Part shown: piece after piece, positions 25,476 to 35,493 of the stretch
Layout of the letters: each line of letters begins with the position of its first letter
How positions within the stretch are numbered: the stretch's first letter is position 1
Assembly: GCF_006716785.1 (NCBI RefSeq)
Contig: NZ_VFPQ01000001.1
Coordinates: 186,001 to 250,000, forward strand
Source of the DNA: Thermopolyspora flexuosa
Lineage (GTDB): Bacteria; Actinomycetota; Actinomycetes; Streptosporangiales; Streptosporangiaceae
Length of the DNA: 64,000 nt
Direction: 5' to 3'
Translations under genes and position numbers: made by a program
The notes under the pieces: generated by a model
The model's database searches: none
What the model was told of the DNA's origin: nothing
What the model saw: only the letters and a program-made list of their open reading frames with translations

Positions 25476-25549
25476 GGGGCTATAGCGCAGTCCGGTAGCG
25501 CACCTCGTTCGCATCGAGGGGGTCAGGGGTTCAAATCCCCTTAGCTCCA
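25476..25549 (+). tRNA. tRNA-Ala (anticodon CGC)
   Basis: A 74-nt cloverleaf: acceptor GGGGCTA/TAGCTCC, D arm GCGC-loop-GCGC, anticodon stem CCTCG/CGAGG with loop TTCGCAT, and T arm AGGGG-TTCAAAT-CCCCT. Discriminator A. It is the insertion site of the mobile element; its 3' half from the anticodon loop is repeated at 35300-35342. Confidence 0.96.
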
Positions 25550-25550
25550 C
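25508..25550 (+). repeat. attL core (43-bp direct repeat)
   Basis: Identical over 43 bp to 35300-35342. It spans the tRNA-Ala anticodon loop to the base after the discriminator. Confidence 0.95.
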
Positions 25551-25559
25551 CCAGGTCAG

Positions 25560-25588
25560 GGGCCACTTCCGATCTTCGGAAGTGGCCC
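25560..25588 (+). terminator. tRNA-Ala terminator carried by the element
   Basis: A long hairpin (GGGCCACTTCCGA pairing with TCGGAAGTGGCCC) starts 11 nt after the tRNA. It resembles in sequence the hairpin just outside attR (35350-35377), so the element appears to bring its own copy of the tRNA terminator. Confidence 0.8.
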
Positions 25589-25599
25589 TCTGGGTGTCT

Positions 25600-25622
25600 G
25601 TACAGCAGCAAGTACAGCAACG
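25600..25622. repeat. Possible integrase arm site next to attL
   Basis: Two half-units, GTACAGCAGC and GTACAGCAACG, lie side by side. The same arrangement occurs near attR at 35193-35216 with one base more between them. Confidence 0.55.
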
Positions 25623-25623
25623 G

Positions 25624-26835
25624 CTACGCCAGCCGCCTGCCCAGCTTCCTGAGCGCCTCGAGCGTCTCCTCGGAGTACACCTCGCTGTAGACGTTCATCG
25701 TGACGCCGATCTGGCTGTGGCGAAGGATCTGCATCACGATCCTCGGGTGGACGTCGAGCGCGACGAGCAGGGAGGCGCACGTCTTGCGGGTGGCGTGCAA
25801 GGGGATGCGCGGCACCTGGGCATGCCTGATCGCGGCGGCGAAGCTCCGGTTGAAGTTCCGCGGCTCCACCGGCCGACCGGTCACGGTCGTGAAGACCAGG
25901 CCGGTCTCAACCCAGTCGCGGCCGGCCCTCAGACGGGCCGCGTTCTGCTCTGCCCGCCGGTCCCGTAGAGCGGCCACGCACGGCTCTACGAGCGGCAGCA
26001 CGGCGTCTGAGGACTCGGTCTTGGTCTCCCGGTGGTACAGCCGTCCACGGACCCGCTGAAGCTGCCATCCGATGCTGATTTCGGCGTTGTCCAGGTCGAC
26101 GTCCTCCCACCGGAGTCCGAGGACCTCGCCGCGCCGGAGACCGAGAACGAGGATGAGCACGTACGCGGCATAGAGCGGATCACGGCGGGTACGGGCGGAC
26201 TCCAGGAATCGCCGGGCTTCGTCGACCGTCCAAGGCTTGATCTTCCTTCGGCGAGGCTTGGGTACCCGTATCAGAGCCGCAACGTTCCTGGCGATCAGCT
26301 CTTCGCGGACCGCGTTGTTCAGCGCGGCCCGCAGCACGGCCCAAGCGTCCCGGACGGTCCGGTCGGAGGGGAGCTGCCGACAGCAGGAGCCCACCGCGCA
26401 GCACTTGCGATCACTTTCATGCCGGCGGGCGTCCTTGCCCTGGGCGCAGCACTGGCAGGTCTTGCGCAGCCGGGTGCACCAGCTCTGCACGTCACGCACG
26501 GAAAGCCGATCGAGCCGTTTGCGGCCGAGATCGGGCTTGATGTACAGCCGGGCGAACATCTCGTAGTTCGCCACCGTCGACGGCGCGAGGTTCGGCTCGA
26601 CGACGTCCCGAACCCAGTAGTCCAGGTAGGCGCCGAGCGTGGGCACCTTGCTCGCGATCGGCCCACGGGTCGCCTGGGCATGCAGCTTGATCCACTTACT
26701 GTGAGCTTCCTCACGCGACTGGCCGTAGACCCATTTGCGGGTCTTCTTGCCTTCCGGCGTGGTCACCCAGACGTACCCGGCCCAACCGTTCCGGTACGGG
26801 AAGATCGAACCCTCGCCGTTGGCACGCCGACCCAT
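25624..26835 (-). CDS. int: Tyrosine site-specific integrase
   Basis: A 403-residue phage-type integrase that recombines attP with the tRNA-Ala attB. Parts seen: an N-terminal AP2-like arm-binding domain (GSIFPYRNGWAGYVWV, residues 9-24), a SAM-like core-binding domain (about 65-190) and the catalytic domain. The Arg is in LGLRRGEVLGLRWED, the H-x-x-R in LHATRKTCASLL, the second His in RHSQIGVTMNVYS and the nucleophile Tyr in this last segment. A Cys-rich insert (CQCCAQGKDARRHESDRKCC) lies in the core-binding part, as in pSAM2-group integrases. Its start overlaps the excisionase stop by one base. The gene ends close to attL, the usual place. Confidence 0.95.
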   Translation of the reverse strand: MGRRANGEGSIFPYRNGWAGYVWVTTPEGKKTRKWVYGQSREEAHSKWIKLHAQATRGPIASKVPTLGAYLDYWVRDVVEPNLAPSTVANYEMFARLYIKPDLGRKRLDRLSVRDVQSWCTRLRKTCQCCAQGKDARRHESDRKCCAVGSCCRQLPSDRTVRDAWAVLRAALNNAVREELIARNVAALIRVPKPRRRKIKPWTVDEARRFLESARTRRDPLYAAYVLILVLGLRRGEVLGLRWEDVDLDNAEISIGWQLQRVRGRLYHRETKTESSDAVLPLVEPCVAALRDRRAEQNAARLRAGRDWVETGLVFTTVTGRPVEPRNFNRSFAAAIRHAQVPRIPLHATRKTCASLLVALDVHPRIVMQILRHSQIGVTMNVYSEVYSEETLEALRKLGRRLA

Positions 26836-27017
26836 CAGGCGGCCTCCTCACACAGCCGGGCCACGTACGCGTCCAAGGCGGACCGAGGGATACGGCGACA
26901 CCGCTCGCTGACGAGCACCGAGACCAGCTCACCCGAGCGTATGAGCTTGTAGACGGTCCACCGGCTGACCTTGAGCGCAGCCATCACTTCGGGAACGGTG
27001 AGCATGTCAGGGGTCAC
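26835..27017 (-). CDS. xis: Excisionase (MerR/Xis-like HTH)
   Basis: A roughly 60-residue winged-helix DNA-binding protein: LTVPEVMAALKVSRWTVYKL, then IRSGELVSVLVSERCRRIPR. Such proteins direct integrase toward excision. The GTG at 27017 has AAGGA at the right distance and is preferred over the ATG at 27026, although the ATG at 27005, one base after the initiator stop, is also possible. It overlaps the end of the replication gene and touches int, so the three are one unit. Confidence 0.85.
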   Translation of the reverse strand: MTPDMLTVPEVMAALKVSRWTVYKLIRSGELVSVLVSERCRRIPRSALDAYVARLCEEAA

Positions 27018-28380
27018 GGGGCGCATTCCTTCCGATCAGAGCGGCAAGCGCGGACTCGCCAGGGGTGAAGCCCTGGCCGGCGAAACGCCAGTGAGCGAGC
27101 ACCAGGGTGGTTTCGGGATCGTGGGAGCCCTGGGCGCGCAGGGTGCGGCAGTAGTCGACTCGGGCCTGACGCAGCGCGCCGAGCGTGGTCGAGTAGGCGC
27201 GGCTTTTGGTCGAGAAGTGGCCGCGAAAGCCAAGCATGTGCGCCCACTGCCGTAGCCGCAGATTCGCCAACTCGGGATAGGCGGCAGGGTTGCCCAGCTC
27301 CCAGGCGGTGCGGATCAGCCGGGCGGCATGCTCGGTGACGCCCAGCTCGCCAAGTCGGCGAAGGTCGGCCCGGTTGAGACGCCGATCCACGGTCCCGGCG
27401 GCTTCGGCGGCCTTGACGGCGTACTTGGCGATGTAGCCGGCGACCTTGGTCTCGGTCAGCTCGCCGTCGTCCAGGTCGCCGGTATCGATAGGGCGGATGT
27501 CGAGCTGTTCGCCCCAGCAAAGGCGTCGCGTGGGCTGGCCGAGGTCGGGTGCCTCGAGATGCACGGCGGCTGCGGCAGTGGTGATCGCACGGGTGAGCAG
27601 ATCGACGGTGGCCCAGGACGGGGGAGGGACGATCGCATCACCCTCACCGCGCCCATCCAGGCGGATCACAGCGTGGAAGTGGACCACTCCGCGAGCCTGG
27701 TATTCGGCGACCTTGGCATAGGAGACCTTGACCTGCCGGGCGAATTCGGCCTGTGTCAGCCCGGCGGCGGCAGCCAGGTGACGACGCAGGTAGATCGTGA
27801 AACGCCGCCACAGGTCGCCGGCGTTGGCGTTCCACAGCACATGCCCGACGTAGTCGTAGGTGTCAGGGTCGAGGGGCTGACCGATGCGCGGATCACCGGC
27901 GGCATGCCGCTCAAAGCAGGCAGGACCACGGCGACGCGGGTGACACACCGGCGAACGGCCGGTCTTGTCCGGGCCACGGTGGACCGGGCCGAAGCTCGGA
28001 GCGGTGAACGTGGCCAGCACCCGCGGATGAGTACGGACGGTTTCGGGCACGCCTTTGCTGCCGCCGAGCAGCCCGGCTTTGAGCAGGTGGTAGGTATCGG
28101 CCCGGTAGACCTCGGCGCAGGAGGGGCAGCGGGAGGCGCGGCGGTTGCCGCAGCGCACCAGCAGATGCCCATGCGGCTCGCTTGCGGTGGTGTAGGCGTG
28201 CAGGACCTCGCCGGTGCGGGTGTCGACAGTGAGCGACTCGCCGGTCAGCCGTACCGGTTCGGCGCAGCCGCGAAGGCGCGTGGCCTGATCGATCCAGCGA
28301 ACCAGGTCGGCGACCGAGTACCGGGCCAGGTCACGAACGGCCGACTCGGCAAGCTCGGCAAGAGTAGCGGCAGCGGTCAT
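27007..28380 (-). CDS. RepSA-family rolling-circle replication initiator
   Basis: A 457-residue initiator. N-terminal CxxC pairs (SRCPSCAEVYRADTYHLLKA, near residue 83) suggest a zinc site. The HUH motif VVHFHAVIRLDG is at about residue 235 and the downstream catalytic Tyr region is GYIAKYAVKAAE. These match the pSAM2 RepSA/HUH nickase family, which starts replication of the excised circle. Its ATG overlaps the stop of the 35-residue gene at 28377 (ATGA), so its translation is probably coupled to it. Confidence 0.93.
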   Translation of the reverse strand: MTAAATLAELAESAVRDLARYSVADLVRWIDQATRLRGCAEPVRLTGESLTVDTRTGEVLHAYTTASEPHGHLLVRCGNRRASRCPSCAEVYRADTYHLLKAGLLGGSKGVPETVRTHPRVLATFTAPSFGPVHRGPDKTGRSPVCHPRRRGPACFERHAAGDPRIGQPLDPDTYDYVGHVLWNANAGDLWRRFTIYLRRHLAAAAGLTQAEFARQVKVSYAKVAEYQARGVVHFHAVIRLDGRGEGDAIVPPPSWATVDLLTRAITTAAAAVHLEAPDLGQPTRRLCWGEQLDIRPIDTGDLDDGELTETKVAGYIAKYAVKAAEAAGTVDRRLNRADLRRLGELGVTEHAARLIRTAWELGNPAAYPELANLRLRQWAHMLGFRGHFSTKSRAYSTTLGALRQARVDYCRTLRAQGSHDPETTLVLAHWRFAGQGFTPGESALAALIGRNAPRDP

Positions 28381-28484
28381 GCTGCGCGCCCCAGTTGGCC
28401 GATAACAACGAGGTGCTTGTCAGTGTCGAGGCAGCCGAGGCCGCCCACGGCTAGAGGTTGGGCAGGAGGCAGCAAGCAAGGCAT
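28377..28484 (-). CDS. 35-residue peptide coupled to the replication gene
   Basis: A very small gene with a clear signal: GAAGGAG eight bases before its ATG, and a stop overlapping the initiator start (ATGA). The peptide MPCLLPPAQPLAVGGLGCLD continues with TDKHLVVIGQLGRAA. No family is recognised. It may simply be a leader that sets initiator translation, or a true micropeptide. Confidence 0.6.
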   Translation of the reverse strand: MPCLLPPAQPLAVGGLGCLDTDKHLVVIGQLGRAA

Positions 28485-28518
28485 ACTTGTGGCTCCTTCG
28501 CTGACACGTGAAGGGGGA

Positions 28519-28573
28519 GACGCCCCGCGGGACGGCGGTTGCCGCCAAGCTCTGGCCGTCCCGTGGGGGCGTC
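28519..28573 (-). other. Large branched hairpin upstream of the replication gene
   Basis: Arms of 17 bp (GACGCCCCGCGGGACGG and its near-perfect complement ending GGGGGCGTC) enclose a nested hairpin GGCGG-TT-GCCGCC. It could be a terminator/attenuator for the operon or part of a replication origin, since it lies just before the initiator unit. No T-run follows on the minus strand. Confidence 0.55.
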
Positions 28574-28596
28574 GGACTGTGACGAAGGGCGTCGGC

Positions 28597-28734
28597 TCAG
28601 CTGTTCTTGTTTTCGGTGTCCTGCTGGGCCAGCTGGGCGTCGTAGGCCTCGCGGACCGAGGCGGGTTCGCCGTTGGGCCAGGTGCCGGGACGCCCCTGGT
28701 CGAACTCGATCGTGATCACGTGGTCCTTGCGCAT
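28597..28734 (-). CDS. Small hypothetical protein of the element
   Basis: A 45-residue gene, ATG preceded by AAGGGAGAA. The product MRKDHVITIEFDQGRPGTWP continues with NGEPASVREAYDAQLAQQD and ends in TENKNS. It looks soluble and acidic at the C-terminus. It sits between the cysteine-motif genes and the replication unit; function unknown. Confidence 0.6.
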   Translation of the reverse strand: MRKDHVITIEFDQGRPGTWPNGEPASVREAYDAQLAQQDTENKNS

Positions 28735-28767
28735 CGGTGGTTCTCCCTTCGCTGGTAGCGGTTGCGG

Positions 28768-28905
28768 TCAGTGGTCGAGGTGGGTGTCCAGGCCGGTGCC
28801 GTTGCAGTCGCGGCAGTCCTCGCCGGATGTGTCACGGCCGGTTCCGGCGCAGGTGGCGCACGGGTAGAGCGCGCTGTCGGGCAGGTCGGCAGGGTTGAGG
28901 CTCAC
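28768..28905 (-). CDS. Mini zinc-finger protein with two DnaJ-type CxxCxGxG motifs
   Basis: A 45-residue product from the GTG at 28905, which overlaps the upstream stop (GTGA) and has GGAAGG before it. It contains CATCAGTGRDTS and CRDCNGTGLDTH, two CxxCxGxG units that together can make one zinc site like half of the DnaJ central domain. It is probably translated with the gene at 28902-29096, which carries the same kind of motif. Role in the element unknown. Confidence 0.7.
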   Translation of the reverse strand: MSLNPADLPDSALYPCATCAGTGRDTSGEDCRDCNGTGLDTHLDH

Positions 28906-29096
28906 CGGCGGGCCTTCCATCGCGGGACACGACCGGTGCCGTTGCAGGTCCAGCAGGAGTCGACGTAGGTGACGGTGCGCCAGAAGATGAACAGTCGGCG
29001 CCTGACCTCGGCGACACGGACGCGGCCGACTCCGGAGCAGTCAGCGCACAGCGAGCCACCGTCGGGAGGAGGGGTTCGAGCTGGGATGCGGGCCAT
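28902..29096 (-). CDS. Small zinc-finger protein with DnaJ-type cysteine motifs
   Basis: A 64-residue protein with AGGAGG five bases before its ATG. The motifs CADCSGVGRVRV and CWTCNGTGRVPR are two CxxCxGxG units separated by about 25 residues, including an aromatic segment (LFIFWRTVTYVDS). It overlaps the start of a second such gene. DnaJ-type fingers bind zinc and can bind protein or nucleic acid. No J-domain is present, so these are not chaperones of the usual kind. Confidence 0.7.
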   Translation of the reverse strand: MARIPARTPPPDGGSLCADCSGVGRVRVAEVRRRLFIFWRTVTYVDSCWTCNGTGRVPRWKARR

Positions 29097-29105
29097 GAGG
29101 ACCTC

Positions 29106-29262
29106 CTAGGGCTTGAGTTGGGTGATCAGGGCCGAGACGGCGTCGGACGACCTGGTGGAGCAGCACCAGCAGCGCCGAGGCGGTGTCGGCGGCTTGGGCC
29201 GGGCGGGTGACGATGTAGAAGGCGGCGAACAGCAGCACCAGTCGCATCGCCCAGCGGCGCAT
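29106..29262 (-). pseudogene. Small membrane protein of the element, apparent +1 frameshift
   Basis: From the ATG at 29262 the frame gives MRRWAMRLVLLFAAFYIVTR, then PAQAADTASALLVLLHQVV. If one base at 29145 is skipped it continues DAVSALITQLKP and stops at 29106-29108, directly before the ribosome site of the next gene. That reading is a compact 51-residue single-membrane-span protein. Without the shift the frame runs on into the next gene. The tight gene packing here (TGATG overlap upstream, stop next to AGGAGG downstream) argues that the shifted reading is the ancestral one. Confidence 0.5.
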
Positions 29263-29564
29263 CAGGCGGTGACCTGGCCGTACGGGCTGAGCAGGATGTC
29301 CCAGTCGTAGGCGGGTGGGGCTGGGACGGCCGCGCGGTAGGTGATCGGGCCGAAGTCACGGGTGGTCTGGTAGTCGAGGCCGTCGCTGGCGGGGCGGTCG
29401 ATCAGGGCGGCGATCCGGTCGACGGTGGCCCGGTCATGGACGTGGATGCTGATCTCGGTGCCGTCGCTCGGCACGGGCACCTTGGGATGGGTGGCCAGGA
29501 AGTCGGCCAGGCGGCGCAGGCCGGCGATGAATTCGGCACGGACGGTGCTGTCAGTGGTGAACAT
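29262..29564 (-). CDS. Hypothetical protein of the element
   Basis: A 100-residue soluble protein (MFTTDSTVRAEFIAGLRRLA, then FLATHPKVPVPSDGTEISIH). Ribosome site GAAAGGA lies eight bases before the ATG. Similar small proteins are common in actinobacterial conjugative elements, but I cannot assign a function. It overlaps the next gene by one base (TGATG). Confidence 0.75.
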   Translation of the reverse strand: MFTTDSTVRAEFIAGLRRLADFLATHPKVPVPSDGTEISIHVHDRATVDRIAALIDRPASDGLDYQTTRDFGPITYRAAVPAPPAYDWDILLSPYGQVTA

Positions 29565-29615
29565 GAGCAGAGTCCTTTCGGGAGCGGTTGAGCAACGCGA
29601 GGTTGCGGAGGGCCA

Positions 29616-29639
29616 GACACGCCCGGTCCGGGGCGTGTC
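29616..29639 (-). terminator. Hairpin after the DUF2637 gene
   Basis: Perfect 9-bp stem GACACGCCC-6 nt-GGGCGTGTC, 11 nt after the stop codon. Confidence 0.65.
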
Positions 29640-29649
29640 CAAAGGCCGG

Positions 29650-30417
29650 TCAGGCGGTTGTGGTGATGCGGGCCAGCAGGTGACGTGCGGTCGCAGGCGG
29701 CAGGCGCAGGCGCTTGCCGAGCTGTTCCGGGCTGATCGGTTCGCCGTGCAGCCGGGCGTGTTCCTGGGCGATGTAGCGGGCGTCCTCGAGCAGGGCCTCA
29801 GAGACCTGGGGCTCCATATCACCGTCAGGTGCGGCAGCGAGGGCTTCCCGGCTGTCGACTGGTCGCCCGGACGGTGCCGCCTCGACCAGAGGTCCGGCCG
29901 TACCGTGGCCGAGGGCACCGGAGGTCACCGCACCGGCCGAACCGCGGGGTTGCAGGTCGGGCATCACATCGCGGTGCACGGTGTCGACCACGGCGACCCC
30001 ACGCGCCTGATCCACCGGTGAGGCGACCTGGTGTGCGTGGGCAGCGCGGCGCTCGAGCATGGAGACCGCGATCAGGAACGCCCCGGCGGGGGTTCCGGCC
30101 ACGATCCAGCCCCACGGGCTTGGGTGGGCTTGGGCGAGGTTGGCCGCCAGGGTGAGCGTGATGCCGCCGGCGAGCACCAGCGTGGGCCACGAGACCGGCC
30201 CGCGCGGGCGGCGCCCGAGCCGCTTGTCCCGCTGGCGTTCGCGGGCGGCCATCACGCACATCAGGTCGATGCACACCGCCACCGCCCAGGAGCGCCAGCC
30301 GGTTTGGCCGTACCGAGCGGCCAGGTGGCTGATGTGGTCGAAGCTGCCAACAGCGGCGATCACCGCGAGGATCACCACCGGCCCGTTGTCGGCCAAGGCG
30401 GCTTTGACGCGGCGCAT
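29650..30417 (-). CDS. DUF2637 membrane protein (possible spread protein)
   Basis: A 255-residue protein with about four membrane segments in the first 130 residues (VVILAVIAAVGSFDHISHLA, SWAVAVCIDLMCVMAA, LVLAGGITLTLAANLAQA, IVAGTPAGAFLIAVSML). The first and third match the DUF2637 pattern found next to TraB-type genes. A cytoplasmic tail ends with an HTH-like segment (ISPEQLGKRLRLPPATARHL). GAAGGAG precedes the ATG at 30417. In pSAM2-like systems membrane Spd proteins act in intramycelial spread. Assignment to that role is inference. Confidence 0.8.
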   Translation of the reverse strand: MRRVKAALADNGPVVILAVIAAVGSFDHISHLAARYGQTGWRSWAVAVCIDLMCVMAARERQRDKRLGRRPRGPVSWPTLVLAGGITLTLAANLAQAHPSPWGWIVAGTPAGAFLIAVSMLERRAAHAHQVASPVDQARGVAVVDTVHRDVMPDLQPRGSAGAVTSGALGHGTAGPLVEAAPSGRPVDSREALAAAPDGDMEPQVSEALLEDARYIAQEHARLHGEPISPEQLGKRLRLPPATARHLLARITTTA

Positions 30418-30434
30418 CAGGGGTCTCCTTCGAG

Positions 30435-30620
30435 CTATGAGGTACGACGAGAGCAGGTGCAGCCGGGCGTCTGGCACCAGCCGGAGGCGTTGGCCCAGGT
30501 CGGGTCGTAGATCGCCCAGCCGTCCTTTTTCGCGCCTCCGGTGTGGACGGCCTTCTGGTGGCCGCACCGGCGGCAGGGCTTTTCGAGCACGCGCATTTGG
30601 GCAAGGTCCATGCGGCGCAT
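30435..30620 (-). CDS. Small Cys-rich protein of the element
   Basis: A 61-residue product starting at the ATG 30620 (CGGAGG seven bases before). It has CRRCGHQKAVHTGG and CQTPGCTCSRRTS, enough cysteine and histidine for a zinc site. It lies 17 bp upstream of the DUF2637 gene and is likely cotranscribed with it. Function unknown. Confidence 0.65.
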   Translation of the reverse strand: MRRMDLAQMRVLEKPCRRCGHQKAVHTGGAKKDGWAIYDPTWANASGWCQTPGCTCSRRTS

Positions 30621-30647
30621 GGAGTGCGCCTCCGTGTGAGGCGACGA

Positions 30648-30697
30648 GGGCATGGATCAGGCAGGGACCTGGCGTGATCAGGGCTCACGCCATGCCC
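30648..30697 (-). terminator. Double hairpin after the transfer ATPase gene
   Basis: Outer arms GGGCATGG/CCATGCCC enclose an inner perfect stem TGGCGTGA-7 nt-TCACGCCA (30670-30692). It lies between the ATPase stop and the next gene, so it may cut or reduce read-through. Confidence 0.55.
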
Positions 30698-30716
30698 GAG
30701 CCGGGGAGATCAGGAA

Positions 30717-32117
30717 TCAGGCGGAGGTCGAAGCCGAGAACTCGGCCAGTTCCTCGGGGGTCACATCGCTGGCATCCACCGGGTCAGCCGAGGCGCGTCC
30801 GGTGAGGTCTTCCCAGGAGGGTGCCAGGTGTGTCCAGGTGTCGGCGGCGGCGTCGGCCTCGTTCTCGGACACGTAGGCCGAGCGCATGCGCCGCCAGCGG
30901 CCATCGGCGCCGATGACCACCGAGGTGCCGGGCATGGAGGCCGGGATCTTCCGGGCGGCTGCCAGCGCGGCAGGGTCCATGTCGCCGAGGGCCATCTTGG
31001 CGGTTTCCTCGTCGTTGACCTTGTGGCAGATCCTGCCGGTGAGCTGGGCGCGGAGCGCGGTCACGCCCGAGCCGAGGTCGGAGCCGATACGCTGACCGCA
31101 GACCACCAGGTAGATCCCGAACGCCCGGCCGATCTGGGCCACCCGAAGCAGCCGGGTTGCCAGGGCCGAGACCTCCTCCTGTTCCTTTTTCTTGTCGGCC
31201 ATCAGGAACAGCTCGGCGACCTCGTCGACCAGCAGCACGATCGGGATCGGGCGCTCGGCATCCGGCAGGCCGGGCTGCCAGATGTTGCGCACCCGGTAGG
31301 TGCGGCACAAGGCCATGCGGTCTTTGATGACGCCGATCAGGTCGGCCAGCAGGGCGATGCACTCGGCTCGCTCGGTGGCCAGTGCGCTCAGCCGGCGCTC
31401 ATACGGTGCCAGCTCCACGCCGCCCTTGAGGTCGAAGCCGACCAGCGCCACCGGCTGGGGTGCCAGCCCGACGAACAGAGCGTTGATCAGGTTGGACTTC
31501 CCGCTTTGGGTCGCGCCGACGATCATCCAGTGCGGCACGGTGCGGAAGTCGATGACGAACGGCTCACCGGTGTCCAGAAGGCCGACCCGGACCCGCAGCA
31601 GCCCATCGGGTGCGGCGGGGAAGGGCACCTTGGCCAGCGGATCGGTGAGCGTCGCGACCAGGACGATGCGGCCCGGTTCCCACGAGGCCAGCCGTACCGA
31701 GTGGACCCGCCAGGCGTGGGCGAGCTTGTCCAGCACCCGGACGTAGTCCTCGGGAGTCTGCCCTTTGTGCAGGCGGATCGAGACTTGGAATCCCTGGCGG
31801 GTGGGGCGGATCAGCCCGATGCGGGGAGCGCGCTCGACATCGACGCGCCGGAGCTTGCGGCGCTGGTCAAGGGTGACCACGTGACGCGCTGCCATCGGCT
31901 CATCCCCCAGGCCGGGGAAGGTCCAACGCCAGCGGCGCTTACGGCGCGACAGCCCGCAGCCGGAGGCGACCGAGCGCCAGGTGCCGTAGATCATCAGCAT
32001 CCGCAGCGGGAACCCGACCAGGTACCAGAACGACACCGGATGCATCCGCTGCCAGACCCACAGCCCGACAGCTACGGATGCCGGTGCCAGTAGGCCCCAG
32101 ACCCAAAGGTCGGTCAT
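30717..32117 (-). CDS. FtsK/SpoIIIE-type DNA transfer ATPase (TraB/TraSA-like)
   Basis: A 466-residue protein. Two membrane segments lie in the first 50 residues, followed by a linker domain and a RecA-like motor with Walker A GATQSGKSN (201-209) and Walker B IPIVLLVDEVAEL (291-303). LLRVAQIGRAFGIYLVVCGQ follows. This is the single-protein conjugation pump of actinomycete elements: a membrane hexamer that moves double-stranded DNA between hyphae. A hairpin follows the stop. It belongs to the operon starting at 32733. Confidence 0.93.
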   Translation of the reverse strand: MTDLWVWGLLAPASVAVGLWVWQRMHPVSFWYLVGFPLRMLMIYGTWRSVASGCGLSRRKRRWRWTFPGLGDEPMAARHVVTLDQRRKLRRVDVERAPRIGLIRPTRQGFQVSIRLHKGQTPEDYVRVLDKLAHAWRVHSVRLASWEPGRIVLVATLTDPLAKVPFPAAPDGLLRVRVGLLDTGEPFVIDFRTVPHWMIVGATQSGKSNLINALFVGLAPQPVALVGFDLKGGVELAPYERRLSALATERAECIALLADLIGVIKDRMALCRTYRVRNIWQPGLPDAERPIPIVLLVDEVAELFLMADKKKEQEEVSALATRLLRVAQIGRAFGIYLVVCGQRIGSDLGSGVTALRAQLTGRICHKVNDEETAKMALGDMDPAALAAARKIPASMPGTSVVIGADGRWRRMRSAYVSENEADAAADTWTHLAPSWEDLTGRASADPVDASDVTPEELAEFSASTSA

Positions 32118-32160
32118 ACTGGAGACCTCCTATGCCTTTCCTGGATTCGGCTGGGAGACC

Positions 32161-32199
32161 CCGGAGCGGTCCGAGCCGGCCAAGCTATGACCGCTCCGG
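32161..32199 (-). terminator. Hairpin upstream of the transfer ATPase gene
   Basis: Perfect 11-bp arms CCGGAGCGGTC and GACCGCTCCGG with a 17-nt loop, between the gene at 32216 and the ATPase start. It may separate the regulatory genes from the transfer gene or work as an attenuator. Confidence 0.6.
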
Positions 32200-32215
32200 G
32201 ACCAAGCCTGCTGGT

Positions 32216-32404
32216 TCAAAACAGCGGCTCCATCGACGAGACAGAGGGAGCCGGTAGGCGACGCAGCCCGCGGAACGGGCGCACCACCTTCGAGCCGTCC
32301 TCGCGCTCGACGAGCACGTTGCGCGGGCCACCACCCCGACCCCACCCGATCAGGACGCGCACGGGACGGCCCTTCTCCAGGTAGACGCGGCCCACGATGC
32401 TCAT
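32216..32404 (-). CDS. Small hypothetical protein of the element
   Basis: A 62-residue basic protein (MSIVGRVYLEKGRPVRVLIG, then GPRNVLVEREDGSKVVRPFR). Its ATG overlaps the stop of the SCO3933-like gene (TGATG). Beta-rich and possibly nucleic-acid binding by charge, but no family is recognised. Confidence 0.7.
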   Translation of the reverse strand: MSIVGRVYLEKGRPVRVLIGWGRGGGPRNVLVEREDGSKVVRPFRGLRRLPAPSVSSMEPLF

Positions 32405-32733
32405 CAGGCCCTCGCCGCCTCGACCGGGCGGATCGCCTCGGCGCGGAACCCGAGGCCCGCGCGCCCGTTCATCTGCCAGAAGAAGGCCGACAGCCCGACC
32501 GGGCGCACCTGAATGCCCTGGGGGATTCTCGGGAAGTCGACCGACGGGAAGGTGACCATGATGACCGGGTTGCGCCGGTCGTCGTTCGGCTGAGGCAGCA
32601 GCGGGATCGTGTACAGCTCCCGCCCCTCGGCGTCCTTCTTGATCTCACCGGTCGCCCGATCGATGATCTTCGGCTCCGGCTCACCGGCGACGGTGAACGA
32701 CAGCGACGAGATGTCCACCGGGATGTTGCGCAT
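32404..32733 (-). CDS. SCO3933-family element protein
   Basis: A 109-residue protein (MRNIPVDISSLSFTVAGEPE, then PVIMVTFPSVDFPRIPQGIQ and VRPVGLSAFFWQMNGRAGLG). It matches the small protein regularly encoded upstream of the transfer ATPase in Streptomyces-type AICEs and named after SCO3933. GAAGGAG precedes the ATG. It is first in the leftward operon and lies just behind the putative GntR operator. Confidence 0.8.
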   Translation of the reverse strand: MRNIPVDISSLSFTVAGEPEPKIIDRATGEIKKDAEGRELYTIPLLPQPNDDRRNPVIMVTFPSVDFPRIPQGIQVRPVGLSAFFWQMNGRAGLGFRAEAIRPVEAARA

Positions 32734-32757
32734 GACGCCCTCCTTCGCATCGATCAG

Positions 32758-32805
32758 CTAGACGGCTACTCGTCTAGAGGAGTTGTAACATGTATAGAGG
32801 AGCTG
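32758..32805 (-). promoter_or_regulatory. Putative GntR operator and promoter of the transfer operon
   Basis: A perfect inverted repeat CTAGACG-6 nt-CGTCTAG (32758-32777) is followed by a direct repeat TAGAGGAG(T/C)TG at 32775 and 32795, spaced exactly 20 bp (two helical turns). The 12-mer CTCGTCTAGAGG (32769-32780) recurs as CTCGTCCAGACG in front of the GntR gene at 33630-33641. Confidence 0.6.
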
Positions 32806-32823
32806 AGCGGCATGCGTCAAGCC

Positions 32824-33615
32824 TTAGTGCGCGGGAAGTTCGTAGGAGAGCTGATAGGCGTCGCCGCGCATGATCGTGTCACAAACCTCCACGGCGCGAC
32901 CTTCGACGTCATAGGCTGTACGGATCAGCCGGAAAACTGGAGTGCCATCACCGAGGGACAACAACCGGGCCTCTTCACGCGTGGGCATTCGCGTGTACAC
33001 GTCTTCCACGAAGCGTTCCAGCTGATGCCCCTGCTCTTCGAGTCTCTCGTAGATCCCGCCGGGCCCGGGGTTGTCATCCATGATCCGGGTACCGCGCGCC
33101 AAGTCCACGGGGATGTACGACGTGGCAAGCTCCACCGGCCGACCATCGAGCAGGTAGCGCCGACTCCGGGAAACGACGATCTCACCCGTCTGAATCTTGA
33201 GACGTTCGGCGACATCGGCGGGCGCCGGCACCTCGCTCACCCGGATCATGTCGACGTCTGCTCTCGCGCCCACGGCCTCCGATTCGGCCAAGAAAGCCGC
33301 CTTGCCCTCTTTGCGGTGACGTCGAGCGAAGCGATCCGAGGCCAACCGCTTGACCGGCGGACGGGAGCGCACGAACACACCACGGCCGTGCTGCGACTCG
33401 ACGTGCCCTTCCGCCTTGAGCTCCTGAATGGCCTGGCGCACGGTCATGCGGGCCACGTTGTAGTGCTCCATGAGCTGTGCCTCAGAGGGCAGCTTGTCAC
33501 CCGCGCGCAAACGGCCGTTCAGGATGGCCTCACGCAGGTGGTCAGCGATCTGACGGAACACCGCACGATCACTTGCCTGGTCAATCTGCCGGGCAAGAAT
33601 CTCAGGGCCCGCCAT
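32824..33615 (-). CDS. GntR/HutC-family repressor (KorSA-like)
   Basis: A 263-residue regulator. The GntR winged HTH covers residues about 20-85 (FRQIADHLREAILNGRLRAG, then SEAQLMEHYNVARMTVRQAI). The C-terminal UTRA domain runs from about 105 to 255 (IVVSRSRRYLLDGRPVELAT, DTIMRGDAYQLSYELP). AAGGAG lies six bases before the ATG. In pSAM2 the equivalent KorSA silences transfer and replication functions. Here matching operator-like sequences lie upstream of itself and of the transfer operon. Confidence 0.92.
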   Translation of the reverse strand: MAGPEILARQIDQASDRAVFRQIADHLREAILNGRLRAGDKLPSEAQLMEHYNVARMTVRQAIQELKAEGHVESQHGRGVFVRSRPPVKRLASDRFARRHRKEGKAAFLAESEAVGARADVDMIRVSEVPAPADVAERLKIQTGEIVVSRSRRYLLDGRPVELATSYIPVDLARGTRIMDDNPGPGGIYERLEEQGHQLERFVEDVYTRMPTREEARLLSLGDGTPVFRLIRTAYDVEGRAVEVCDTIMRGDAYQLSYELPAH

Positions 33616-33629
33616 GCCGTACTCCTTGA

Positions 33630-33641
33630 CTCGTCCAGACG
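33630..33641. promoter_or_regulatory. Operator-like site between GntR and Nudix genes
   Basis: CTCGTCCAGACG contains the dyad CGTC-CA-GACG and resembles the site at 32769-32780. It lies 15-26 bp upstream of the GntR start and 41 bp upstream of the Nudix start, so it could control both. Confidence 0.5.
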
Positions 33642-33681
33642 TCTACTACTGTTCAGCCTATCCGCAGAAGGGACACCAACG

Positions 33682-34107
33682 ATGAGGGCAGATGCTCGAC
33701 ACTCTGTGAGCGTCGCGGGGGTCATCGTCGATGACCGTGGCCGCGTGCTGCTGACCCAACGCGCCGACAACGGCCAGTGGCAGGCACCCGGTGGTGTGTT
33801 GGAGATCTCAGAAGGGATCACTGAGGGCCTGCGTCGCGAGGTTCTCGAGGAGACGGGTCTCACCGTGGAACCGGTCGCCCTCACCGGTGTCTACAAGAAC
33901 ATGGCTCGAGGCATCATCGCTCTGGTCTTCAGATGCAAGGCGACGGGCGGAAGCCTCACGCTGAACGACGAGGTCCGGGACTTCCATTGGGCCACGCCCG
34001 ATGAGGTGTCAGAGATGGTCACGGAGGCCTTCGCAGTCCGCGTACTGGACGCATTGCACGACGGCACGCCCGCCATCAGAGAGCACGACGGCACGCACCT
34101 CGTCTAA
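33682..34107 (+). CDS. Nudix protein, possible Pif-like conjugal immunity factor
   Basis: A 141-residue Nudix protein: the box begins GGVLEISEGITEGLRREVLE and ends ETGL, with all key residues. Start ATG 33682 after GAAGGGA. It is the only rightward gene of the element and diverges from the GntR repressor. pSAM2 has a Nudix protein, Pif, that blocks transfer into cells already carrying the element. The same place and family make that role likely, but sequence alone cannot prove it; it might also be a plain house-cleaning hydrolase. Confidence 0.85.
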   Translation: MRADARHSVSVAGVIVDDRGRVLLTQRADNGQWQAPGGVLEISEGITEGLRREVLEETGLTVEPVALTGVYKNMARGIIALVFRCKATGGSLTLNDEVRDFHWATPDEVSEMVTEAFAVRVLDALHDGTPAIREHDGTHLV

Positions 34108-34139
34108 CAGCGCGTTACGAATTTCCATACGTCGTCAAG

Positions 34140-34157
34140 CCCGCCGCAAGCGGCGGG
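34140..34157 (+). terminator. Hairpin after the Nudix gene
   Basis: Perfect 8-bp stem CCCGCCGC-AA-GCGGCGGG, 32 bp after the stop. Its core CGCCGCAAGCGGCG recurs at 34464-34477 within a 9-bp stem. Confidence 0.6.
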
Positions 34158-35192
34158 GGAACACCAGGCAGCAGGAACCAAACAGCCTTAGACCAAGCAC
34201 CGTCGCACCCGCCACACGGGCGCCCGCGACAAGCCGCGGCACCGCCGAACGCCAACCGGCCACAACACCCAAGGCACCAAGCACCTTTGCCCGTGACACC
34301 ACCGCTGCGGACCCAACCAGCACACTCACACACGCAGCCTGCGGACCCGGCGGCCTTGCTCTCCCCGATCGAGAGCACACCCACACAGCCAGGTGCCGGG
34401 CTCGCGCCCGCTCGCCGGCGGGCTGCGGCCCGGGGCCGGTCCCGCCGGCGGCGGCGCGGCCCACGCCGCAAGCGGCGTGGCCACGAGCACGGCAGCAGAC
34501 CCACCCGCGACGACCAGGCCTGTTTCCACGCGGGTGAACCACAGCATGGCGCAATGCCCTGTCCTTGAGCCCAGCGCACGGCATGACCAGGCGAACGACG
34601 CCCAGAGACACAAAGCAAGGAGAAAAGGAAGGGAGGATCGGGAACGGGGCCGGGTGGGTGCGGGGAAGGTCTGTTTTTTGCCTCCGGCGGGGGCCTCCGG
34701 CTCCGGGAAGATCGCGATCTTGTGGTGGATGACCGTGAGGGCTGAGGTGGAAGCCCTGATCGTCCCGCCTGCCATCGGCCCGGGCAAGCCCAGCAGACCG
34801 GCTCCTGCGTGTCAAGCTCGGCAGCACCGGAGGACAACAGCCCACGCGGAAGGTCACCGGCCAAGGGACATGCGATGCCGAGCTTGACACTCCGTCGCCG
34901 GCCCGCTGCCCCTGGCGGGGCGGGCCGACGGCAGACGGGAAGATCAGGGCAGATGGGAAGGGTCTGCTGGACACCTGGGCAAAAGCGTGCTGCGGCGAGC
35001 TAGTCAAATCGCTTGCGCATTACTTCGAGGACGCCACCCGGATTTAATAGGTGATACGCCCGCTCGTGTCACGCGCTTGCTGGCTTCGCAGCACCGGGGC
35101 TATGGGGTGGTACCCGGCGATCTTTCGCAGGTTCACATCTACCTGTGCACTCAAGCTGGTGTCCTCACCAATCCTGCGAAGGACGACAGCTG
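34158..35192. other. Gene-poor right end of the element, possible origin or transfer locus
   Basis: No frame has convincing coding character on either strand. The region contains a second hairpin with the CGCCGCAAGCGGCG core (34461-34480), a G/A-rich stretch at about 34610-34680, and a 15-bp inverted repeat (34809-34890). There is also a short inverted pair TTCGCAGG/CCTGCGAA (35124-35131 and 35173-35180) close to attR. Elements of this class need a cis-acting transfer locus and replication origins, and this is the largest non-coding space available for them. Confidence 0.5.
34809..34890. repeat. 15-bp perfect inverted repeat with 52-nt spacer
   Basis: GTGTCAAGCTCGGCA at 34809-34823 is exactly complementary to TGCCGAGCTTGACAC at 34876-34890. 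The intervening 52 nt contain smaller CACCGG/TCACCGG repeats. Confidence 0.8.
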
Positions 35193-35216
35193 GTACAGCA
35201 GCGGAGTACAGCAACG
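35193..35216. repeat. Possible integrase arm site next to attR
   Basis: GTACAGCAGC and GTACAGCAACG side by side, matching 25600-25622 at the left end in the same orientation on the plus strand. Confidence 0.55.
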
Positions 35217-35299
35217 CCGTCTTGCTCGACCAACCAGAAACGCTCTCCAACCACCGCTCTACCTGGGCAGAAACGCCCCAAAGAGCTACCTGCCTTTCT

Positions 35300-35342
35300 T
35301 TCGCATCGAGGGGGTCAGGGGTTCAAATCCCCTTAGCTCCAC
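35300..35342 (+). repeat. attR core (43-bp direct repeat)
   Basis: Exact copy of 25508-25550. It preserves only the 3' half of the tRNA, so no functional tRNA is made here. Confidence 0.95.
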
Positions 35343-35349
35343 AGGTCGA

Positions 35350-35377
35350 GGGCCACCTCCGGATCCGGAGGTGGCCC
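35350..35377 (+). terminator. Original tRNA-Ala terminator, displaced
   Basis: Hairpin GGGCCACCTCCG-GAT-pairing CCGGAGGTGGCCC, a perfect palindrome over 26 bp, eight bases after attR. Before insertion it would have followed the tRNA. Confidence 0.75.
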
Positions 35378-35493
35378 TTCTGCTTTCGGTACGCCGCCCG
35401 CGTGGGCGGAGCGGACGCCGGTGCCGGGGCGGCGTTCCCCACACGCCCGCCCCGAGGGTTGAGCCGTAAGAGATCGCCGATCAGGCTGGACCC

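Follow-up and report, generated by a model that had tools for sequence, protein, structure and literature searches.

Structure of the element and its tRNA target

The window, a stretch of 64,000 nucleotides of the Thermopolyspora flexuosa genome (G000:C1:186001-250000; 5.77 Mb in three contigs), holds an element inserted in the 3' half of a tRNA-Ala(CGC) gene (Table 1). Its ends are marked by an exact 43-bp direct repeat, which extends to 46 bp with one mismatch (25505-25550 and 35297-35342), and the start-to-start spacing of the att repeats is 9,792 bp, giving an element of 9.8 kb. The left copy of the repeat forms the 3' half of an intact tRNA gene, which is the sole full-length tRNA-Ala(CGC) copy in the genome (the next full-length matches are 85% and 78% identical) and alone was matched by an Rfam scan over the region. 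Chance is no serious explanation for a 43-bp tRNA-derived repeat adjoining an integrase gene. The original prediction had placed both ends at these repeats and the restored tRNA at attL, and both the repeat pair and the intact tRNA were found again.

The predicted set of int, xis, RepSA-type initiator, FtsK-like pump, GntR repressor and Nudix genes was likewise confirmed, each at its expected place and with intact motifs. None of the 14 ORFs used had an internal stop and the core genes were uninterrupted, with their catalytic motifs; int and the initiator gene, in which inactivating mutations had been named beforehand as counting against the prediction, contained no such mutation. With respect to pSAM2-class RepSA proteins, the initiator scored 538 bits against NF041486, below the 700-bit equivalog cut-off of this NCBI model. 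The single transfer protein was the FtsK/SpoIIIE-type Tra: the scanned ORFs gave Pfam and NCBIfam matches to no other transfer gene.

Table 1. Features of the element and its borders (positions in the window)
Feature	Position	Strand	Evidence or remark
tRNA-Ala(CGC), rebuilt from host 5' part and element 3' part	25476..25549	+	ARAGORN; Rfam RF00005, 67 bits
attL core, 43-bp repeat	25508..25550	+	
Intrinsic-terminator-like hairpin of the element, directly 3' of the tRNA	25559..25589	+	Fold of 60 nt downstream, -33.5 kcal/mol
Left GTACAGCA pair, likely integrase arm-type sites (P' arm)	25600..25619	+	
int, tyrosine recombinase, 403 aa	25624..26835	-	PF00589 and PF14659; R-HxxR-H-Y residues present
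xis, excisionase, 63 aa	26835..27026	-	PF12728; TIGR01764 above cut-off
repSA, HUH-type replication initiator, 457 aa	27007..28380	-	PF20199, 540 bits; HFH and YIAKY (YxxKY) motifs
Small CxxC..CxxC zinc-motif protein, 50 aa	28768..28920	-	Weak DnaJ-type zinc-finger match; same position in several relatives
Second small CxxC protein, 64 aa	28902..29096	-	No relative with a match
C-terminal ~100 aa of ORF 29262-29918, start estimated	29262..29570	-	Conserved in some relatives
spd-like membrane protein, DUF2637	29650..30417	-	PF10935; start inferred from onset of relatives' matches
72-aa CxxC ORF	30435..30653	-	Match only in G001
tra, FtsK/SpoIIIE DNA pump, 466 aa	30717..32117	-	PF01580, 91 bits; Walker A GATQSGKS, Walker B LLVDE
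62-aa ORF	32216..32404	-	Match only in G001
pra-like gene, SCO3933-family regulatory protein, 109 aa	32404..32733	-	NF051478, 110 bits (cut-off 80)
7-bp inverted repeat CTAGACG..CGTCTAG between gntR and pra, candidate repressor operator	32758..32777	.	
GntR/HutC-type repressor (korSA-like)	32824..33615	-	PF00392 and PF07702 (GntR-UTRA)
Nudix hydrolase (pif-like)	33682..34107	+	PF00293; complete Nudix box
15-bp perfect inverted repeat GTGTCAAGCTCGGCA / TGCCGAGCTTGACAC	34809..34890 (arms at 34809/34876)	.	In ~1.1-kb non-coding right part
Right GTACAGCA pair, likely integrase arm-type sites (P arm), 87 bp from core	35193..35213	+	
attR core, displaced 3' half of host tRNA	35300..35342	+	
Displaced host terminator hairpin, after attR	35349..35379	+	Fold; same sequence type in G001 contig C386

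In Streptomyces coelicolor the Pra homologue is SCO3933, and pra of pSAM2 lies downstream of korSA (PMC8584621). Since the 109-aa product belongs to the SCO3933 family and its gene occupies a pSAM2-like position, one supposedly unknown small gene becomes the predicted master activator of the element. Position and domains also led us to assign the GntR protein as a KorSA-like repressor and suggested a probable Pif-type immunity role for the Nudix protein. The inverted repeat between gntR and pra, to which a half-site CTCGTCCAGA at 33630-33639 is related, is a candidate operator for this repressor.

The small genes, all thought at first to be probably needed for the element, turned out to be a mixture of conserved and non-recurrent ones, so that this view is supported for some of them only. 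Genes pra and spd (whose product shows 46-48% identity in the closer AICE relatives), the 50-aa zinc-motif ORF and the C-terminal part of ORF 29262-29918 recurred at the same place in relatives, whereas the 62-, 64-, 72- and 73-aa ORFs had no match there, save the 62- and 72-aa ORFs in the G001 copy described below. The upstream part of ORF 29262-29918, which overlaps spd, is probably non-coding. At the right end, about 1.1 kb (34115-35190) showed no codon-position GC signature of a gene, and its ORFs were ruled out as genes on this ground and for want of family matches. This part has a strong excess of A over T on the plus strand and is a possible origin or transfer site. The repeat of pSVH1 is GACCCGGA; a cluster of short Tra-recognition repeats, sought as over-represented 8- to 10-mers including this one, was not found in the element.

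Probable integrase arm-type sites and terminator behind the tRNA

Paired GTACAGCA sites, with repeats 12-13 bp apart and both pairs in the same orientation, lie within both ends, 50 bp from the left one and 87 bp from the right one. Zero such pairs were expected by chance in the window and two were found; in the whole 5.77-Mb genome they occur only at the two ends of the element. In relatives, the pair was found directly behind the tRNA, beside int. The distance between the right pair and the tRNA-derived core repeat was 85-88 bp here and at loci in G029 (tRNA-Thr, 43-bp repeat with copies 16.7 kb apart), G010 (tRNA-Ala(TGC)), G012 (tRNA-Ala(GGC), several cores in series) and G081 (tRNA-Ala(CGC)), and was similar, roughly 80-90 bp, in G060; the right pair was inverted at L060, the locus with the nearest integrase. 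Being unique to the element ends in its genome and recurrent at similar places in relatives, the GTACAGCA pair is probably an integrase arm-type site to which Int would bind. Arm-type repeats of matching architecture and other sequence are known from pSAM2 and pACPL, those of pACPL being of the GTCACCCAG type and said to resemble those of pSAM2 (PMC3364876).

Two loci, in G012 and G010, stood out in these comparisons. In L124 (G012:C30:16000-35000), tRNA-Ala(GGC) has at least three core repeats behind it, together with four GTACAGC pairs, an apparent tandem array of integrated elements. In L122 (G010:C12:90500-104500), matching core repeats and GTACAGC pairs flank tRNA-Ala(TGC), with no match to the integrase or RepSA of the window; this locus can be read as a decayed or divergent element.

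Integrating islands restore the tRNA gene that they enter. The hairpin brought by the element directly behind the rebuilt tRNA (arms GGGCCACTTCCG..CGGAAGTGGCCC) and the host hairpin displaced beyond attR suggest that integrating elements also carry a replacement terminator, although for its effect on expression this reading of the sequence, which is our own, is a prediction. A hairpin was present 3' of the tRNA in nearly all tRNA sites examined, being weak or absent in L102, L105 and L124, and most of the ten loci with a second core had one behind that copy too (weak in L099 and L056). Relative to the original prediction, pra, the arm-type sites and the replacement terminator are new.

Comparison with a same-genus genome and evaluation of mobility

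One same-genus genome, G001, was compared, a draft of 590 contigs and 78% completeness. Its flanks are 89-94% identical to those of the window. Over 2,908 bp (29846-32753), its contig C508 matches the element without a substitution and differs by a 1-bp insertion alone, which puts tra out of frame. Set against the identity of the flanks, the absence of substitutions indicates that the shared tract is very young, which argues for recent movement of the element and a recent common source with the G001 copy. The remainder of the element had no high-identity match in G001, so that two close species differ in what occupies this tRNA gene; an arrangement fixed in all relatives, which had been expected if the prediction were wrong, was thus not observed in the one same-genus genome compared. 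Contamination of G001 by the genome of the window itself was considered and is unlikely because a 10-kb control of neighbouring chromosome gave 87-91% matches in G001 and C508 carries G001's own flank beside the tRNA.

The order along C508 is G001's own tRNA-Ala(CGC), an integrase C-terminus, truncated capsid, scaffold-like and ADP-ribosyltransferase-like genes, and then the AICE tract, joined to the phage genes inside spd (prophage remnant L092, G001:C508, 2909-6640). The locus has the appearance of a prophage and an AICE that had stacked at a single tRNA before a deletion; the join inside C508 may also be a misassembly in the draft. A search for a syntenic empty site through the flanking GNAT gene found this gene kept beside the site only in G001, where contigs break at the repeat. 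Sequence like the left junction of the element was present in 23 of 201 family genomes, that of the window included. Among the matches listed, the complete genomes G022 and G024 had no second core for tRNA-Ala(CGC); several other genomes have one.

It could be argued that the element was formerly mobile and is now stuck, its genes looking intact with excision no longer taking place. Decay is common among AICEs (PMC9513070), and the G001 copy has indeed decayed, with a frameshift in tra, a cut spd and a fusion to prophage pieces. However, all core genes of the window are uninterrupted and keep their motifs, neither an arm-site pair nor a core is missing, and a recent common source with the G001 tract speaks against long immobility, so that we consider a defective element improbable. 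Far less credible still is a prophage or phage satellite in place of a conjugative element, a reading that could appeal to the tyrosine integrase in a tRNA gene and to the remnant of phage head genes that adjoins the related tract in G001: the Pfam and NCBIfam matches of the element's ORFs included no gene for head, tail or terminase, RepSA and an FtsK-type Tra are present, and RepSA had no match among 50,697 phage records. An actinomycete integrative and conjugative element (AICE) that is probably still mobile, as judged from its sequence, is the reading that we retain.

Classification and significance

Every testable feature that defines a pSAM2-type AICE in tRNA-Ala(CGC), as originally proposed, was found: att direct repeats and a tyrosine integrase for site-specific insertion into the 3' end of a tRNA gene, an autonomous replication initiator of the RepSA kind, a lone FtsK/SpoIIIE-type transfer protein with no type IV secretion gene among the family matches of the scanned ORFs, a Pra activator and a GntR-UTRA repressor with a putative operator, and, at the sequence level, arm-type integrase sites flanking the core. 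We are therefore highly confident that the element is a complete AICE of the pSAM2 type, its Int-arm, regulation and transfer steps being predicted. It adds to the AICE family and is ordinary in kind.

The tRNA target is Ala(CGC) here and Pro in the case of pSAM2. This prototype from Streptomyces ambofaciens shares with the element the int-xis-repSA block, an FtsK-like tra, the Nudix gene, 3'-tRNA integration, pra downstream of a GntR repressor, arm-type repeats flanking the core and a size of about 10-11 kb (PMC3364876, PMC8584621, PMC3218068); Nudix genes are a trait of AICEs in general, as is their preference for tRNA 3' ends (PMC3218068). The compact size below 10 kb stood, at 9.8 kb, but is not unusual beside the 10.9 kb of pSAM2 (PMC3364876). 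AICE pACPL from Actinoplanes sp. SE50/110 has in common a 43-nt att identity segment, two arm repeats flanking attP and the int/xis/repSA/tra/spd/pra/regulator/nud gene set, and differs in its size (13.6 kb), its tRNA-Pro target and its arm repeat (PMC3364876).

By integrase, the closest named relatives were Streptosporangium, Spongiactinospora, Sphaerisporangium and Nonomuraea, and the gene order pra-tra-spd-rep-xis-int was kept in genomes of Streptosporangium, Spongiactinospora and Nonomuraea. Streptosporangiaceae AICEs of the same integrase clade (L053, L054, L057, L058, L062, L067 and L101/L120) have integrases 54-73% identical, the same gene order, paired GTACAGC arm sites (the second site absent or degenerate in L053 and L054) and a terminator after the tRNA, which is Ala(CGC), Ala(TGC), Thr(CGT) or Thr(TGT). 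Several of them have another regulator beside pra, and elements elsewhere in the clade measured up to 16.7 kb (G029). The host genome itself contains a second, distinct RepSA element of 11.7 kb in tRNA-Ala(TGC), with 44-bp repeats and its own integrase, RepSA, FtsK-like, GntR and Nudix genes (G000:C2:95346-107123; L090:3347-15132).

Regulation, replication mode, transfer and immunity of the element are inferred from pSAM2. By this analogy, the GntR repressor would silence pra and, via pra, the xis/rep/int block. Once repression is lifted, Int and Xis, the former attached to the paired arm sites, would recombine attL with attR to free a 9.8-kb circle. RepSA would replicate this circle, the FtsK-like Tra would pump double-stranded DNA into an adjacent hypha and proteins of the Spd type would spread it, the Nudix protein probably conferring Pif-type immunity. 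Integration in the recipient would rebuild the 3' half of tRNA-Ala(CGC) and provide the gene with a new downstream terminator.

In Streptomyces, AICEs that share a tRNA site are documented to accrete, exchange modules and decay (PMC9513070). A broader proposal, in which we see about as much to doubt as to believe, is that the integrases of the clade use a common arm-site code (paired GTACAGCA, at ~50 and 87 bp from the core) with differing tRNA targets (Ala-CGC, Ala-TGC, Thr-CGT, Thr-TGT), that their elements carry a replacement terminator with the tRNA 3' half, so that the limits of AICEs in draft genomes may be recognisable from arm pairs alone, and that the join of AICE transfer module and prophage in G001 is a real hybrid. 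The locus is a clean, near-minimal, apparently intact AICE outside Streptomyces, with exact ends and predicted arm sites, and shows that genes have recently passed between two species at a single tRNA. Such an element could become a site-specific integration tool for Streptosporangiaceae.
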